A DNA stretch of 51,854 nt from a virus. The notes under the pieces are model-generated. The model did not search any database. It had not been told where the DNA came from and saw only the letters and a list, made by a program, of their open reading frames with translations. The position numbers were made by a program, and so were the translations under genes. Positions 1,287 to 28,559 of the stretch are shown piece by piece (position 1 is the first letter of the stretch; each line of letters starts with the position of its first letter). Location of the stretch: positions 1 to 51,854 of the IMG/VR virus record IMGVR_UViG_3300020182_001863. One strand, written 5' to 3'.

Positions 1287-1438
1287 TCAGATTTCCAGAT
1301 AGTCCATATACCATATGCAATTGCCGCATATGCAATTAAATCAACTGGCACAATAAGCATTGCGATTCCAGTTGCAACTAGTGCGGCACCGTCGAGTGTT
1401 GTACGCTCCTTTAGTCTATTTTTAATCCAATTAATCAT
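1283..1438 (-). CDS. Small membrane protein (51 aa)
   Basis: Starts MINWIKNRLKERTTLDG and ends WTIWKSE. It has a charged amphipathic N-terminus followed by a hydrophobic stretch of about 30 residues (GAALVATGIAMLIVPVDL and onward), enough for one or two membrane segments. It overlaps the end of the CDF transporter by 8 bp and its stop overlaps the next gene's ATG, so it is the middle member of a coupled three-gene unit. Small proteins of this type are frequent in marine T4-like phages; the function is unknown. Confidence 0.65.
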   Translation of the reverse strand: MINWIKNRLKERTTLDGAALVATGIAMLIVPVDLIAYAAIAYGIWTIWKSE

Positions 1439-2360
1439 TTTTTTTCTCCTCTAATAATTTATTATAAAACAGTTCTTCATCTGGACAATTATTATGTTCA
1501 ATTTGAATAGTTGTGTGTACTATTTTATAATTATCGATTAATAGTTTCTTGGTATTATATATTGTATCATCGCATTCGCCATCATCCAATATATTGATGT
1601 GCATAGCGGCTGAAATTTGTCCGCTTGCTAATTCCCATATATGTATATGGTGAACATTATTAACATGATCGATATTTGTTATAATATCTTTTACTATAAC
1701 ATCAATATCAATATGTTCTGGTTTTCCAGTCATTAGTATTCTAAGACAATCTTTTAATAATTCCCAACCACTTTTTAATATTAAACTGGCAAGAAGTACA
1801 CTTATAATAGGATCAATATAATACCAATCAGTAAAATATATTACGATACCACCTATAATGGCACCAACACTGCCTAAAATATCAAGTAAGATATGAAGTA
1901 TCACTCCTCGCATATTAATATTATGACCATCATGGTGATGATGCACTACTTTAAATAATACCAAATTAACGATTAATCCAATAATCGCAATTGGTAACAT
2001 CCAATATATATCAACATGCTCAGGATTTAGTATTCGATAGATTGCTTCGTATATAATATATGCAAAAAGTCCAATCCACATCAGTGCATTTAAAAATGCT
2101 GCAATAACTTCCGCTCTCATAAATCCATATGAGTATGTGGCAGTCGGTGGTTTTCTACCAATCCAAAATCCAAATACGGCAATAATCATTGCTAACGCAT
2201 CGGTTGAAAGATGCAATGCATCACTTAATAATGCAAGTGAATTACTTATATGTGCACCAAATAACTCGATAACAACAAATAGTATTAAAATAAAAATACT
2301 TATTTTTAATGCACGTTCTTCTTTGCCGGCTTTTCTGATATGATATTGATTATGCTTCAT
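1431..2360 (-). CDS. Cation diffusion facilitator (CDF) metal efflux transporter
   Basis: 309 residues, full length for a CDF/ZitB/CzcD protein. Six hydrophobic segments lie between residues 18 and 200. Segment 2 carries H50-x3-D54 (SDALHLSTD) and segment 5 carries H156-x3-D160, the HD-HD metal site of zinc/cadmium-type CDFs. A His-rich loop (H140-H143, H146) lies between segments 4 and 5, as in ZnT/ZitB proteins. Residues from about 205 form the cytoplasmic ferredoxin-like dimer domain (HHIHIWELASG). CDFs exchange Zn2+ or similar ions for protons across the inner membrane. The ORF is intact and overlaps the epimerase gene by 11 bp, so it is co-transcribed. A transporter of this family is very unusual in a phage. 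Family call firm; metal specificity inferred. Confidence 0.9.
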   Translation of the reverse strand: MKHNQYHIRKAGKEERALKISIFILILFVVIELFGAHISNSLALLSDALHLSTDALAMIIAVFGFWIGRKPPTATYSYGFMRAEVIAAFLNALMWIGLFAYIIYEAIYRILNPEHVDIYWMLPIAIIGLIVNLVLFKVVHHHHDGHNINMRGVILHILLDILGSVGAIIGGIVIYFTDWYYIDPIISVLLASLILKSGWELLKDCLRILMTGKPEHIDIDVIVKDIITNIDHVNNVHHIHIWELASGQISAAMHINILDDGECDDTIYNTKKLLIDNYKIVHTTIQIEHNNCPDEELFYNKLLEEKKND

Positions 2361-3273
2361 CTATACTTTTCTTTAGATTATAAAGGTCTCTAATACCAGT
2401 TTCGGTATCTATTAAAGGTTGCCAGCCTAATAGTTTTTTTGCCTTAGATATATCGGCAAGAGTATCGGTTGCATATCCTTTAGGCTTATCTTGGTATTCT
2501 ATTTCCAAATCTGGAAAAAACTCACGTAATATATTTACTATCTGATTTACCGAATAACTTTTTCCTGTTCCCACATTAAAGACTTCACTTTTTACTTTGG
2601 ATTCCATACTCGCAATACATGCACTTGCTACATCGCTTACATGAATATAATCTCGTTTAAATTCACCATCGCCATGAACGGTTAATGGATGGCTATCATT
2701 TGCTAAACGATAAAACTTACTAATCATTAATCCGTTATCGTCGTCCGATGGTTGTTCTGTTCCATAGGTTGTAAAGAAACGTAATACATTATAGTTCAAG
2801 TCAAATACATTTTTATACTGTTTGCATAATTGCTCACCGAATAATTTAGTCATTGCATAATAATTCAATGGATCTGGTTTATGAAATGGTTTATGTGGCG
2901 GAGGATTATTACCATATATACTAGATGAACTAGCATAAACAAATTTCCGTATACCAACCGCATGTGCGGCAGTTAATACATTTCGTGTGCCAGTTACATT
3001 ATTATCAAAATAAGTATCAGGATCAATAAAACTTTGTGGTATTCTTGCTTTTGCTGCAAGATGAATAATATAATGTTGACCAACTGCTGCCATAACACAT
3101 TTAGCAGCACTTTGTATGTCACCTTTAATATAACGTACATATTTAAAATCTTGTGGCTTTTCAGATTTATCTAACACCGTTACTTCATACCCTTTTGAAA
3201 GTAGTTGTCTGACAACTTCTCTGCCTATGAAGCCTGATCCGCCAGTGACAAGAACTTTACCTTTTACTAACAT
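2350..3273 (-). CDS. NAD(P)-dependent sugar epimerase/dehydratase (extended SDR)
   Basis: 307 residues, typical for UDP-glucose 4-epimerase/UDP-glucuronate epimerase-type extended SDRs. Rossmann motif GGSGFIG at 11-17; adenine-site acid in GDI (51-53); HLAA at 71-74; catalytic Ser cluster 115-118 and Y139-x3-K143. The C-terminal half has the usual substrate-domain motifs (NVGTGKSYSVNQIV, LGWQP). It interconverts nucleotide sugars in the cytoplasm and probably supplies a sugar for capsule/LPS change or for DNA or virion glycosylation. Two glycosyltransferase-like genes occur elsewhere in the window. The exact substrate cannot be read from the sequence. Confidence 0.9.
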   Translation of the reverse strand: MLVKGKVLVTGGSGFIGREVVRQLLSKGYEVTVLDKSEKPQDFKYVRYIKGDIQSAAKCVMAAVGQHYIIHLAAKARIPQSFIDPDTYFDNNVTGTRNVLTAAHAVGIRKFVYASSSSIYGNNPPPHKPFHKPDPLNYYAMTKLFGEQLCKQYKNVFDLNYNVLRFFTTYGTEQPSDDDNGLMISKFYRLANDSHPLTVHGDGEFKRDYIHVSDVASACIASMESKVKSEVFNVGTGKSYSVNQIVNILREFFPDLEIEYQDKPKGYATDTLADISKAKKLLGWQPLIDTETGIRDLYNLKKSIDEA

Positions 3274-6990: not shown

Positions 6991-7019
6991 ATTCTACACG
7001 ATTCTAAAGTATTTGTCAA
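6991..7019 (-). promoter_or_regulatory. Sigma70-type promoter for the glycosyltransferase gene
   Basis: TTGACA (7014-7019), 17-bp spacer, TAGAAT (6991-6996). The spacer contains GAATC one base out of register with the ACGAATCA class. TGA of the upstream stop codon is part of the -35 box. Confidence 0.65.
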
Positions 7020-7693
7020 CTTCTTTGATCTTTAATCCAATTCTTGGCCGGTGGCATAGATGGCGGCTTATTTAAAAATTTATCAATTGCTCTATCAACT
7101 TCTAAGAAATTTGCTTTACGTTCTGGATCTTCTAGTCCACCAGAGTTATCAACAATATGAAAATTTCCTGCACCGAATAACTGTTGGAACTTCATAAGAT
7201 TCTGCTGTACTGCTTGCCACATCTTAGTTACTTGTTCTCTTGGTAAACTTCTAGGACGATTTTCATTACGATCTTGTGCAACATCTTCACTCGTATTAAC
7301 AAACAACATCATTGTTTCATAGCCAAGTTCTTTTAGTTGTTCACTTGCTTTTTGAACTTTTGCTACATCTTTACCAGTGCCATCAATAATAAGCCCTAGA
7401 CGGCCTTCGATATGTAATTGTTGTTTATTTTTTGTAATCTGTTTTGCACGATTACGAATTTCTTGACCTTCATCAGAATAGATATCATCTGGAGTCAATT
7501 CTTTTCCTGCTTTGTTCATCATATATTCGTAAATGTCATCTGAATTTACTGTTCTGAGCCCAGTACCTTGGAGCATCTTATTAGCAACAAAACTTTTGCC
7601 GCTACCTGGACCGCCTGCTAAGAATACTGCTTTGAAAATATGAGGATCATTCACGCCCTCTTCCATAGATTGTATGATTTCTTCTATTTTCAT
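7016..7693 (-). CDS. P-loop kinase (AAA_33/zeta-toxin/polynucleotide-kinase-like)
   Basis: 225 residues. Walker A GGPGSGKS at 27-34, then a lid/substrate region with NRAKQITKNKQQL, LIIDGTGKDVAKVQK (Walker-B-like), LFVNTSEDVAQDRNENRPRSLP (Arg-rich lid) and HIVDNSGG. This is the order of small nucleoside/polynucleotide or zeta-type kinases. It phosphorylates a nucleotide, nucleic-acid end or nucleotide sugar in the cytoplasm. It is under a late box at 7727-7734, so it may act late or be packaged. CGGAGATTATA precedes ATG. Confidence 0.75.
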   Translation of the reverse strand: MKIEEIIQSMEEGVNDPHIFKAVFLAGGPGSGKSFVANKMLQGTGLRTVNSDDIYEYMMNKAGKELTPDDIYSDEGQEIRNRAKQITKNKQQLHIEGRLGLIIDGTGKDVAKVQKASEQLKELGYETMMLFVNTSEDVAQDRNENRPRSLPREQVTKMWQAVQQNLMKFQQLFGAGNFHIVDNSGGLEDPERKANFLEVDRAIDKFLNKPPSMPPAKNWIKDQRS

Positions 7694-25771: not shown

Positions 25772-25889
25772 TGTAGTGTTTCCTAAAATTTCAAAATTTC
25801 CCCAATAGTCTTCTGGTTCTATTTGAGTTTCATCAATATTACTAAAGATATCCAACAAATCGGCTCTCTGTTTATTAGCATGTACGTTC

Positions 25890-25918
25890 TTTATATAATG
25901 ATTCGTATTGTTTGTCAA
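25890..25918 (-). promoter_or_regulatory. Early promoter, ACGAATCA class
   Basis: TTGACA (25913-25918), N6, ACGAATCA (25899-25906), N3, TATAAA (25890-25895). About 115 nt of leader before ATG 25771. Confidence 0.85.
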
Positions 25919-25920
25919 GT

Positions 25921-25945
25921 AAAAAGAGCGCCGAAGCGCCCTTTT
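25921..25945 (-). terminator. Terminator with UUCG loop, fused to the next promoter
   Basis: GGGCGC-TTCG-type stem with GCGC arms, then T5 directly followed by ACTTGACA of the early promoter. The hairpin starts at the stop codon of 25944-26159. Confidence 0.85.
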
Positions 25946-26159
25946 ATTTTCCTCTACCAAATCTGTTTGCTGGTCTATAAAAAATCTTTTGATTATGGAA
26001 TCTTCCTAGCAAATCACGAATTTCTTTCAACTCTTGTGCTAGTTTATCATCATGTTCTTCCATTAAACGTTTTGCCCTTCTGGAAACTTTTGCACTTAGT
26101 GCGTTTTCTATAATTTCTAAATCCCTAACTGATAACTTAAAATTTTCATTTGGTTTCAT
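25944..26159 (-). CDS. Small helical basic protein (71 aa)
   Basis: Start at ATG 26159 (MKPNENFKLSVRDLEIIENAL), coupled by ATGA to the preceding small membrane protein. The longer 89-residue frame only reads through that gene. Helical, charged, with RDLEIIENALSAKVSRRAKRLMEEHDDKLAQELKEIRDLLGRFHNQK, likely coiled coil. Last gene of the pseudoazurin operon. Similar small proteins occur in marine phages; function unknown. Confidence 0.6.
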   Translation of the reverse strand: MKPNENFKLSVRDLEIIENALSAKVSRRAKRLMEEHDDKLAQELKEIRDLLGRFHNQKIFYRPANRFGRGK

Positions 26160-26263
26160 AGTCCTAATCTCCACATCCAAATCGGTATAACAACTACATG
26201 TAATACAACACACAAGACAAGCATTAATATAACTATTTTATAATTGCCTCTATCGCCGTGCAT
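26156..26263 (-). CDS. Single-pass membrane microprotein (35 aa)
   Basis: MHGDRGNYK then a continuous hydrophobic segment (IVILMLVLCVVLHVVVIPIW) and a short MWRLGL tail. ATG overlaps the previous stop (TAATG) and its stop overlaps the next ATG (ATGA). This double coupling argues that it is a real gene. It sits directly after the DoxX-like gene, so it may be a subunit or assembly partner. Confidence 0.55.
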   Translation of the reverse strand: MHGDRGNYKIVILMLVLCVVLHVVVIPIWMWRLGL

Positions 26264-26670
26264 TACGTTCTGTTTCCTCTTAGAGCAAAATACATTCCGC
26301 CTACCCATAGTAGAACATGAAAGTGGTCGTATAGGATCACATCCCAGAAACTTTCTGGTTCGCCTGTCCATATAACACCTGTCATAATACTGGCAATAGT
26401 AATGCCACTGAAACGTGTAATAACATCACCAAACTCTTTTAGTCGTTTGATATAGTCTGATAGGCCGCCGACTAATAATCCTGCAGCGGCTCCAAGTTCT
26501 CCTAGTACAACAACCGACCAAACTAATAGTGTAAGTTCTACTGGCGAGTCTTCGATATTGATTGGCCACTTGTTCATTCCTTGCTGAAAAAATACAACAA
26601 TAAGTGGAATACGAAGTAGCCAATGAGTCATACAAAACTCTGGAATTTTGTTTACAAAGTTTCTAAACAT
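26263..26670 (-). CDS. DoxX-like four-helix membrane protein
   Basis: 135 residues with four hydrophobic segments (about 18-31, 46-69, 89-104, 112-128). LLRIPLIVVFFQQGMNKW matches the start of DoxX/DoxD family proteins (L-R-x-x-x-G-x-x-F-x-x-x-G-x-x-K), and GELGAAAGLLVGGL and ITRFSGITIASIM fit later helices. DoxX proteins sit in the inner membrane and are tied to quinone or thiol redox. Just downstream of the pseudoazurin gene (3 bp), hence probably a shared redox role. Confidence 0.7.
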   Translation of the reverse strand: MFRNFVNKIPEFCMTHWLLRIPLIVVFFQQGMNKWPINIEDSPVELTLLVWSVVVLGELGAAAGLLVGGLSDYIKRLKEFGDVITRFSGITIASIMTGVIWTGEPESFWDVILYDHFHVLLWVGGMYFALRGNRT

Positions 26671-26673
26671 AAC

Positions 26674-27090
26674 TTATAACTCTGCTAACAATGCCTTTAG
26701 TTTTTTCTTTGACTTGCCTTTTACTTTGGCTTTGGATACATCATTGTCTCCGTCACCTACAACAACAATAGCAATCATGCCCATCGACTTGTGTGGTGAA
26801 CACTGATATACATAGACGCCTGGGGTATCAAATGCAATTTCAACTTCTTTGTTGAGTTTTGATTTACGTGGTGCTTTCCAACCATCTGGACCTGCAATAA
26901 ATTCCACATTGTGACCTTTTGATGTCGGTACCCAAGTAATTGTATCACCTACGTCAATACGTGTGATATCTTCTGAGTACACCATCTTTGCACCATCATC
27001 ACGATTATTTAACATTTCTACTGTTGTATCTTCTGCATATGCATTAGTAGCAAATAGTGCCACAATTGCTGCAACAATTAAATTTTTCAT
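26674..27090 (-). CDS. Pseudoazurin-type exported blue copper protein
   Basis: 138 residues. Signal peptide 1-19 (NAYA then ED), so periplasmic. The cupredoxin domain covers about 22-113. Copper ligands are all present with pseudoazurin spacing: H60 (KGHNVE), C97, H100 and M105 (YQCSPHKSMGM). This matches pseudoazurin (ligand gaps of 37, 3 and 5 residues here) better than plastocyanin. It carries single electrons between periplasmic redox partners, classically to nitrite reductase or cytochromes. A Lys-rich tail (about 119-133) is unusual and could dock to an acidic partner. Phage carriage is rare. Own promoter at 27121-27149. Confidence 0.9.
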   Translation of the reverse strand: MKNLIVAAIVALFATNAYAEDTTVEMLNNRDDGAKMVYSEDITRIDVGDTITWVPTSKGHNVEFIAGPDGWKAPRKSKLNKEVEIAFDTPGVYVYQCSPHKSMGMIAIVVVGDGDNDVSKAKVKGKSKKKLKALLAEL

Positions 27091-27120: not shown

Positions 27121-27149
27121 TTATTAATAATATAGTGTATATTTGTCAA
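27121..27149 (-). promoter_or_regulatory. Sigma70-type promoter for the pseudoazurin operon
   Basis: TTGACA (27144-27149), 17-bp spacer, TAATAA (27121-27126). Drives 27090 to 25944, ending at the UUCG terminator. Confidence 0.65.
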
Positions 27150-27192
27150 GTTTCAAGTAAAACACATGCGATAAAGTGTAGCAGTATTACAT

Positions 27193-28140
27193 CTATTTGG
27201 TTTGAATATTCTGTTCAGTTTCAAATTCATTAACACTATTATATGTTTTTAGTTTGAGACCATAATTGTTTGTGTTTGTTGATAATGTAATGCCATCTTT
27301 TAGTTTTAACATATTCTTTTTAAATGGCAAGTAGTCTACATAATGATGCCATCTTCCATATCTCCATACCACTTTCGCAACATCCGGATGCATATCTGCT
27401 AACATTTGTGATTTATTAATTGTTCCATCACTGTTGTATTTGGTTTTTTGAAAGTCTTCATTGTCCGTATATTCAGCATGATAAAATTCTTCTGTATTCC
27501 CACCCTTAACAGTTTGAGTTGCACACTTTCCCTGTAAGAATGCATTAAATTGTATTGTACAATCGCCATCTTTAAGAACACGAAGACAAATATCAGTATC
27601 CTCATTGTATCTGCCACGCCATCTATACTTGCAATCATTTTCAATTAAAAGTGTTGAATATATTCGAGTGTTTTTTACATATGGAGGATATGATTGATCT
27701 GCTGCGCAGAAAAAACGATACTGTGGTCCAGCAATTTTTACATTTTCATATCTATCACAAAAGTCTTCCATAATCTTGAAGAACAAACCAGACTCTACAC
27801 GAATACGCTGATTATTATGTAGTCTATAAAAGTCTTGAATATTATCATCTAGTACCCAATGTCTTTTTGCTTTCAATACTTCCATAGAATGATCCCAGCA
27901 CCAATTTCTTGCTCTTCCTGGTCCATCACCATGATTACTGAAAGGTAATGTTAGCAATGTAACATATGGCCGAATATTAAATTCATCTAATGCAGCATCA
28001 TAATTATCATAATCTTGTGGTTCTACAGAAATATAATGTTTTATTCCCATACGTGCTAATGAACGAGAAGTAAACATGGATTCATGTCTAGTTTTAGATA
28101 TAATATATACTGGATATTTCGGATCAGTTCGTTTACTCAT
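27193..28140 (-). CDS. TET-associated-type glycosyltransferase (TAGT-like)
   Basis: 315 residues. VYIISKTRHESMFTSRSLARMG (11-32), V-E-P-Q-D-Y-D-x-Y (39-47), LPFSNHGDGPGRARNWCWDHS (65-85) and HWVLDDNIQDFYR (94-106, DDN 98-100) are the ordered motifs of the phage TET-associated glycosyltransferases. In phages with TET/JBP dioxygenases, these add sugars to hydroxymethylated cytosine in DNA. No TET gene or C5-methyltransferase is visible here, so the acceptor is inferred; one could lie outside the window. Overlaps the preceding gene by 4 bp. Confidence 0.75.
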   Translation of the reverse strand: MSKRTDPKYPVYIISKTRHESMFTSRSLARMGIKHYISVEPQDYDNYDAALDEFNIRPYVTLLTLPFSNHGDGPGRARNWCWDHSMEVLKAKRHWVLDDNIQDFYRLHNNQRIRVESGLFFKIMEDFCDRYENVKIAGPQYRFFCAADQSYPPYVKNTRIYSTLLIENDCKYRWRGRYNEDTDICLRVLKDGDCTIQFNAFLQGKCATQTVKGGNTEEFYHAEYTDNEDFQKTKYNSDGTINKSQMLADMHPDVAKVVWRYGRWHHYVDYLPFKKNMLKLKDGITLSTNTNNYGLKLKTYNSVNEFETEQNIQTK

Positions 28141-28559
28141 TGCCAGCCTTCATTGTTGTCATCATCGATTGCTGTATCTTCATCATCATCATCTTCTATC
28201 CAACGAAGTAATGCATTTTTAGTAATTTCTAACTTAGGATACCATGCACTTTTTGTTTTCTTTGTAAGATGTGTATTGCCAGTTAATTTTGCAAATTCAT
28301 CATAGTCTTCTTCATTACGAAAATGAATTCTAACTGTTTTCCAAGGTCCATTATCTTCCTGTACAAATTCAGGCATTTCTTTCCAATGTTGTGTCCAGTG
28401 GTCTGGATTAATTTCTACTTCTTCAACATCAAATAAACTTGCAAACGCATCAGGATTTTCTAGTTTTTTCTGTTTATTTTGGGCAGCAAGGTCCATCAAG
28501 TTTTCATATTCACCAGATTCTTTTACTTCTGATGTAGGTATATTTGTTTCTTCTGTCAT
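28137..28559 (-). CDS. Conserved partner protein of the glycosyltransferase (140 aa)
   Basis: The central block HWTQHWKEMPEFVQEDNGPWKTVRIHFRNEEDYDEFAKLTG then LTKKTKSAWYPKL resembles a widespread uncharacterised phage domain (W-K-x-M-P-E-F...K-T-K-S-x-W-Y-P). The ends are very acidic (EDDDDEDTAIDDDN). Its stop overlaps the TAGT-like gene start (ATGA). Promoter at 28592-28621. Possibly a modification or nucleotide-pool accessory factor. Confidence 0.6.
   Translation of the reverse strand: MTEETNIPTSEVKESGEYENLMDLAAQNKQKKLENPDAFASLFDVEEVEINPDHWTQHWKEMPEFVQEDNGPWKTVRIHFRNEEDYDEFAKLTGNTHLTKKTKSAWYPKLEITKNALLRWIEDDDDEDTAIDDDNNEGWQ

Follow-up and report, generated by a model that had tools for sequence, protein, structure and literature searches.

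Control of host electron transport by phages is established for cyanobacteria. A published hypothesis treats the cyanophage genes petE, which encodes plastocyanin, and PTOX as a mobile gene cassette (PMC3037559), and viromes from the Indian Ocean include cbb3 oxidase subunit I and NADH dehydrogenase as viral respiratory genes (PMC3474794). The Indian Ocean reports concern individual metagenomic sequences, whereas the locus described here is a defined operon that is repeated on many long contigs and includes a soluble carrier. What it would share with those reports is the action of viruses of heterotrophs on respiration. No description of a phage pseudoazurin or a phage DoxX protein was found in the literature searched, of which the coverage was partial.

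The window, meaning the whole stretch of 51,854 nucleotides that was analysed, comes from a virus record of IMG/VR and carries an operon of genes for a pseudoazurin, a DoxX-like protein and two smaller proteins. Like the petE/PTOX cassette, it is a small cassette with a phage cupredoxin carrier, is presumed to sustain host electron flow, and has an AOX-superfamily quinol oxidase linked to it in related phages. It differs in that the cupredoxin is a pseudoazurin and not a plastocyanin (about 30% identity, E above 1e-3), the partner is DoxX-like, the host process would be alphaproteobacterial respiration and not photosynthesis, and the alternative oxidase of the related phages has no match to cyanophage PTOX at E 1e-5. 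The linkage of cupredoxin and AOX that characterizes the petE/PTOX cassette was not found in the window phage or in a 146-kb relative. By this comparison, the window cassette would work like petE/PTOX but would not be a member of it, having another cupredoxin family, no oxidase and another host chain.

The four genes lie on the minus strand and span 25944-27090. The pseudoazurin, a type I blue copper protein of 138 amino acids with a signal peptide, is encoded at 27090-26674. Its stop codon is followed by a 3-bp spacer (GTT) and the start of the gene for the DoxX-like protein, a predicted four-helix membrane protein (135 amino acids, 26670-26263), an arrangement in which the original prediction and the coordinates agree. 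That prediction went on to a trio closed by a microprotein and coupled by TAATG and ATGA overlaps. Both overlaps are present. TAATG couples the DoxX-like gene to the gene for a single-pass membrane microprotein of 35 amino acids (26263-26156; MHGDRGN.KIV...LCV.LH.VVIPIWMW.LGL), but ATGA leads into a fourth open reading frame that the predicted interval omitted. This final gene of the unit encodes a soluble protein of 71 amino acids (26159-25944).

Upstream of the pseudoazurin gene is an AT-rich gap of 102 bp containing a promoter-like region (ACTTGACA ... TATATTATTAATAA; 27124..27150, minus strand), with the ACTTGACA box at 27149. The same box is common to many intergenic starts on the minus strand (49868, 43272, 41601, 40570, 39635, 30373, 27149, 25918, 13909, 6123, 5813, 5544 and 5169). 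A fuller form reads ACTTGACA-N5-6-ACGAATCA-N-TATAAAG and is also seen continued as -N-ATGTATA, and the minus strand of the window has 37 copies of TTGACA, the plus strand 15. Sigma-70-like sites are present 5' of the pseudoazurin gene, but the scan for them did not exceed shuffled sequence. The shared box is better promoter evidence than that scan, and the upstream box by itself is a weak indication. Directly 3' of the stop codon of the 71-amino-acid protein is an intrinsic terminator hairpin with a T tail (AAAAGGGCGC-TTCG-GCGCTCTTTT; 25917..25943, minus strand; -13.9 kcal/mol, z -3.17), which one scan missed owing to the base pairing of its T run with A. The next promoter-like box (ACTTGACAAACAATACGAATCATTATATAAAG; 25880..25920, minus strand) bounds the unit and would drive the following gene. 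The short gaps and overlaps, the upstream box, the terminator and the next box therefore delimit a self-contained block resembling a transcription unit of four genes, not three.

The first gene encodes a true pseudoazurin, an assignment that is firm and far beyond chance. As had been claimed from the sequence, the protein has a signal peptide (cleavage motif AYA before the cut and E after it) and the four copper ligands H60, C97, H100 and M105, with the C-x2-H-x4-M loop intact. These ligands are invariant across 21 phage pseudoazurins, and across 25 sequences once cellular ones are included. The protein matches PF00127 (Copper-bind) with an E value of 3.4e-15 and TIGR02375 with one of 1.5e-30; the latter score of 105.3 bits is 4.5 bits short of the equivalog cut-off of 109.85, and amicyanin, halocyanin, plastocyanin and all other cupredoxin models score far below it. 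Pseudoazurins also lead a sequence search of the PDB (E 8.6e-24). The structure prediction that had been suggested gave a confident AlphaFold (AF2) model (pLDDT 89.5) with a cupredoxin beta-sandwich and a C-terminal helix, and the top 27 Foldseek matches in the PDB are all pseudoazurins (27/27; TM-score by target, 0.83-0.88). The family scores and structure matches rule out plastocyanin or another cupredoxin as the identity of this protein. Pseudoazurins of marine Rhodobacterales (Ascidiaceihabitans, MED-G08) and of SAR11, SAR116 and OCS116 belong to the same family and have the same ligands. Unlike the phage gene, those cellular genes are chromosomal and stand beside unrelated genes, not in a DoxX operon.

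The DoxX-like protein of the window scores 17.0 bits against DoxX (PF07681), under the Pfam cut-off of 23.6. All 17 of the 17 phage members of its subfamily match this model (best 2.7e-8), and its cellular orthologues exceed the cut-off. The protein thus appears to belong to the DoxX family, an assignment that holds for the subfamily and is weak for the window copy alone. Four hydrophobic peaks are seen at a relaxed threshold, the AF2 model is helical with a mean pLDDT of only 57, and a profile search of the PDB gave no match. The phage protein is like its PF07681 relatives beside NDH-2 and sdhC in being a predicted four-helix membrane protein with a conserved, ALRGNR-like C-terminus. What sets the phage subfamily apart is the pseudoazurin encoded alongside it. 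The classical DoxD/DoxA thiosulfate:quinone function is not indicated, and no DoxA-like neighbor was recognized by eye in the phage and cellular DoxX-like loci that were inspected.

Cellular relatives of the DoxX-like protein offer the main clue to its function. In one marine alphaproteobacterial order with small genomes (32 genomes of 0.9-2 Mb searched), strong homologues occur in about 13 genomes. In four of these genomes the gene adjoins NDH-2 (NDH2_C and cNMP-binding domains), and in the two of these four loci that were read closely it lies about 50 bp upstream of NDH-2 on the same strand. The homologue beside NDH-2 is 47% identical to the phage protein. Among Rhodobacterales, 8 of 13 weaker homologues sit between a MaoC-like gene and sdhC, with SdhC confirmed. 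The remaining cellular homologues have unrelated neighbors, and most of those in the small marine alphaproteobacteria are not beside NDH-2. Both recurring neighbors, NDH-2 and succinate dehydrogenase, reduce the quinone pool. These contexts suggest that the DoxX-like protein acts at the quinone-reducing end of the chain rather than by direct contact with the pseudoazurin. A distant DoxX-like gene of a small marine alphaproteobacterium (contig L335:3773-5438) is near a proteorhodopsin-like gene, the rhodopsin having been read by eye.

Relatives of the pseudoazurin are encoded on at least 336 viral-contig stretches, and relatives of the DoxX-like protein on 97. Linkage was assessed in 27 dereplicated loci that were fetched by the pseudoazurin alone, with 1.5 kb on either side; because they were drawn from the best 80 hits, the fractions apply to relatives close to the window. 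The DoxX-like gene is within 1.5 kb of the pseudoazurin gene in 20/27 of these loci and directly downstream in 15/27, and the ends of the two genes often overlap or nearly do so. Only 8/27 loci have the microprotein nearby, sometimes without the DoxX-like gene, and 11/27 have the 71-amino-acid family. A CoxIV-like small protein occurs within 1.5 kb in 21/27, usually upstream, the single-pass TM58/TM46 family is nearby in 18/27, the two-helix P111 family in 13/27, and an alternative oxidase in 1/27. The conserved unit is the pair of pseudoazurin and DoxX-like genes, which recurs in many marine phages, and the exact trio is conserved only in part. The expectation that the trio would recur intact in viral metagenomes was therefore half borne out: it holds for the pair but not for the microprotein. 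One contig (L045:4573-9332) has a pseudoazurin gene without DoxX, amid three related open reading frames with radical-SAM-like cysteine motifs and a nucleosidase-like frame, as read by eye.

All parts of the operon are under strong purifying selection. Median dN/dS values are 0.137 for the pseudoazurin, 0.115 for the DoxX-like protein, 0.118 for the microprotein (33 pairs) and 0.365 for the 71-amino-acid protein; in related phages, they are 0.207 for the CoxIV-like protein and 0.103 for the alternative oxidase. Its conservation and dN/dS rule out the microprotein as a spurious open reading frame.

Related phages encode further candidate respiratory partners. The CoxIV-like family comprises proteins of 62-76 amino acids (L042:2410-2613, L014:5780-5983 and some 110 other loci in viruses), and 12/17 members match subunit IV of bacterial aa3 oxidase (PF07835), one of them over the cut-off of 22 at 24.2 bits. 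In the PDB, CoxIV chains of Paracoccus and Rhodobacter are among its few, individually insignificant, matches. The family also has a conserved YNGEQY..P tail and an invariant Cys in a lipobox-like VASC motif, which would equally fit a family of small lipoproteins. The phage alternative oxidase is recognized with 272 bits by PF01786 and matches AOX in the PDB (E 4.6e-45). Full-length genes are found on many viral contigs (L080:1892-2500, L157-L236), with 103 relatives in one scan, and the sole match in an annotated phage collection is a record of Phage C48C1, labelled as a hypothetical protein. Several contigs have this gene immediately upstream of the pseudoazurin gene, and in other phages it is placed between P111 and the 71-amino-acid family, members of which adjoin it. 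A pseudoazurin is present in 7/82 phage alternative oxidase loci, and most lack one. Alternative oxidase and DoxX-like genes never share a contig among 82 and 130 redundant viral loci, respectively, nor in 22 large contigs (8 versus 10). As these genes were themselves the basis for selecting the contigs, and as the phage groups may differ, mutual replacement of the two is only a lead. Neither CoxIV-like nor alternative oxidase genes occur in the window phage or its near-identical 146-kb relative, so it is the pseudoazurin and the DoxX relatives that connect that phage to respiration.

The phage is probably T4-like and would infect a marine aerobic alphaproteobacterium, most likely of the Rhodobacterales or a near relative. 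On the 146-kb contig, the pseudoazurin, DoxX-like and neighboring genes are 100% identical to those of the window. The UvsX and UvsW-like helicase of the window are closest to those of Sinorhizobium phage Phosso, and Agrobacterium phage Atu_ph07 also scores high. Identity as a pelagimyophage has no support, as UvsX and UvsW point to large phages of the Phosso/Atu_ph07 type; the pelagimyophage paper makes no mention of azurin, copper or DoxX. The nearest chromosomal pseudoazurins are those of the marine Rhodobacterales Ascidiaceihabitans (71% identity) and MED-G08 (64%). In the proposed phylogeny against alphaproteobacterial pseudoazurins, Rhodobacterales sequences indeed mix with the phage clade, the SAR11 and SAR116 types fall outside, and there is a second, distinct lineage of phage sequences. 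MED-G08 also has a DoxX-like gene, 64% identical to that of the phage, on the same contig as its pseudoazurin gene and about 8 kb away. Two phage contigs binned in metagenome-assembled genomes, one of Muricauda (L237) and one of Rhodobacteraceae (L242), give conflicting and weak evidence of host. The former is a phage fragment with the pseudoazurin-DoxX pair and is probably mis-binned.

We consider it probable that the operon is an auxiliary cassette for aerobic respiration in a T4-like phage of a marine alphaproteobacterium. The secreted pseudoazurin would load copper and, in the periplasm, shuttle electrons to a terminal oxidase, taking them from cytochrome bc1 or some equivalent donor. It would thereby replace or supplement host carriers after the shutdown of host gene expression. 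Within the inner membrane, the DoxX-like protein would act beside the quinone-reducing dehydrogenases, NDH-2 or succinate dehydrogenase, and promote or adjust the flow of electrons to the quinone pool. The microprotein would then be a small accessory subunit. In this way NADH turnover and ATP supply would be sustained while phage nucleotides and virions are made. Phages with an alternative oxidase instead might relieve the quinone pool through direct quinol oxidation. The original prediction had described a redox module in the envelope of a heterotroph, consisting of a periplasmic carrier and its membrane partner. Pairing, selection and relatives beside respiratory enzymes speak for this, but the membrane partner points to the quinone-reducing end rather than to the pseudoazurin. 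The composition also is wider than predicted: a fourth gene belongs to the unit, and related islands add a CoxIV-like protein and, in some cases, an alternative oxidase.

The pseudoazurin might instead feed host denitrification through NirK or NosZ, the phage thereby boosting nitrite or N2O reduction at low oxygen. Pseudoazurins are known donors to NirK and N2O reductase, and a SAR11 nirK-cbb3 region from an upwelling system includes one (PMC12816887). However, none of 27 pseudoazurin-bearing marine alphaproteobacterial genomes, many of them incomplete, has a NirK over the cut-off, and the partners in phage islands are of aerobic types (alternative oxidase, aa3 CoxIV-like). Denitrification is thus the less likely role, and quite an improbable one. 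A NosZ search gave no match, but neither did its controls, so that it carries no information on this point. Another reading is that the cassette handles copper or oxidative stress, with the pseudoazurin as a copper buffer or electron sink and the DoxX-like protein in a membrane redox-stress complex. In mycobacteria, an oxidative-stress complex that includes a DoxX homologue has been described. Conservation of the copper site is equally expected in that case. No genes for copper chaperones, efflux or peroxidases recur near the phage pseudoazurin, and the cellular DoxX-like contexts that do recur are NDH-2 and sdh, so a stress role seems rather unlikely.

The shuffled order of island genes among phages, and the many single-pass small proteins of unknown role, would also suit an accessory island of small envelope proteins (for example, for superinfection exclusion or lysis timing) in which the pseudoazurin and the DoxX-like protein are independent and have no joint redox function. 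The lipobox-like motif of the CoxIV-like proteins would fit such an island. This explanation is unlikely given the direct adjacency of the pair in 15 of the 27 loci from the best 80 hits, the frequent overlap or near overlap of their ends, the respiratory context of cellular DoxX-like relatives and the alternative oxidase beside pseudoazurin in several contigs. Both genes have clear cellular relatives, as captured host genes without a role in infection would, but dN/dS values of 0.10-0.14 across many divergent phages and the two separate phage pseudoazurin lineages make mere capture highly improbable and disfavored.

It is possible, and we suggest tentatively, that marine alphaproteobacterial phages have a modular island for steering respiration, as a heterotroph counterpart of the cyanophage photosynthetic cassette. 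Its modules would be a carrier of the blue copper type, a component on the quinone side (DoxX-like in some phages, alternative oxidase in others), a CoxIV-like oxidase subunit and several single-pass accessories. If so, viruses would adjust how much oxygen major non-photosynthetic heterotrophs of the ocean consume and how much energy they gain, and the tie to quinone-reducing dehydrogenases would offer a way into the biology of DoxX, a large and loose family whose function is uncertain.

Other genes of the window also merit mention. Just upstream of the operon (27193-28559) are genes for a TET-associated glycosyltransferase (PF20691, 3e-43) and a 140-amino-acid partner. Both are absent in the related contigs L003 and L005, where a Clp protease adjoins the pseudoazurin, and they therefore look like a recent insertion or loss. 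A Zeta-toxin/AAA_33-type kinase (7016-7693) adjoins a putative tail gene. At 1431-3273, a cation-efflux (CDF) transporter gene overlaps one for an NAD-dependent epimerase, which is unusual cargo for a phage.
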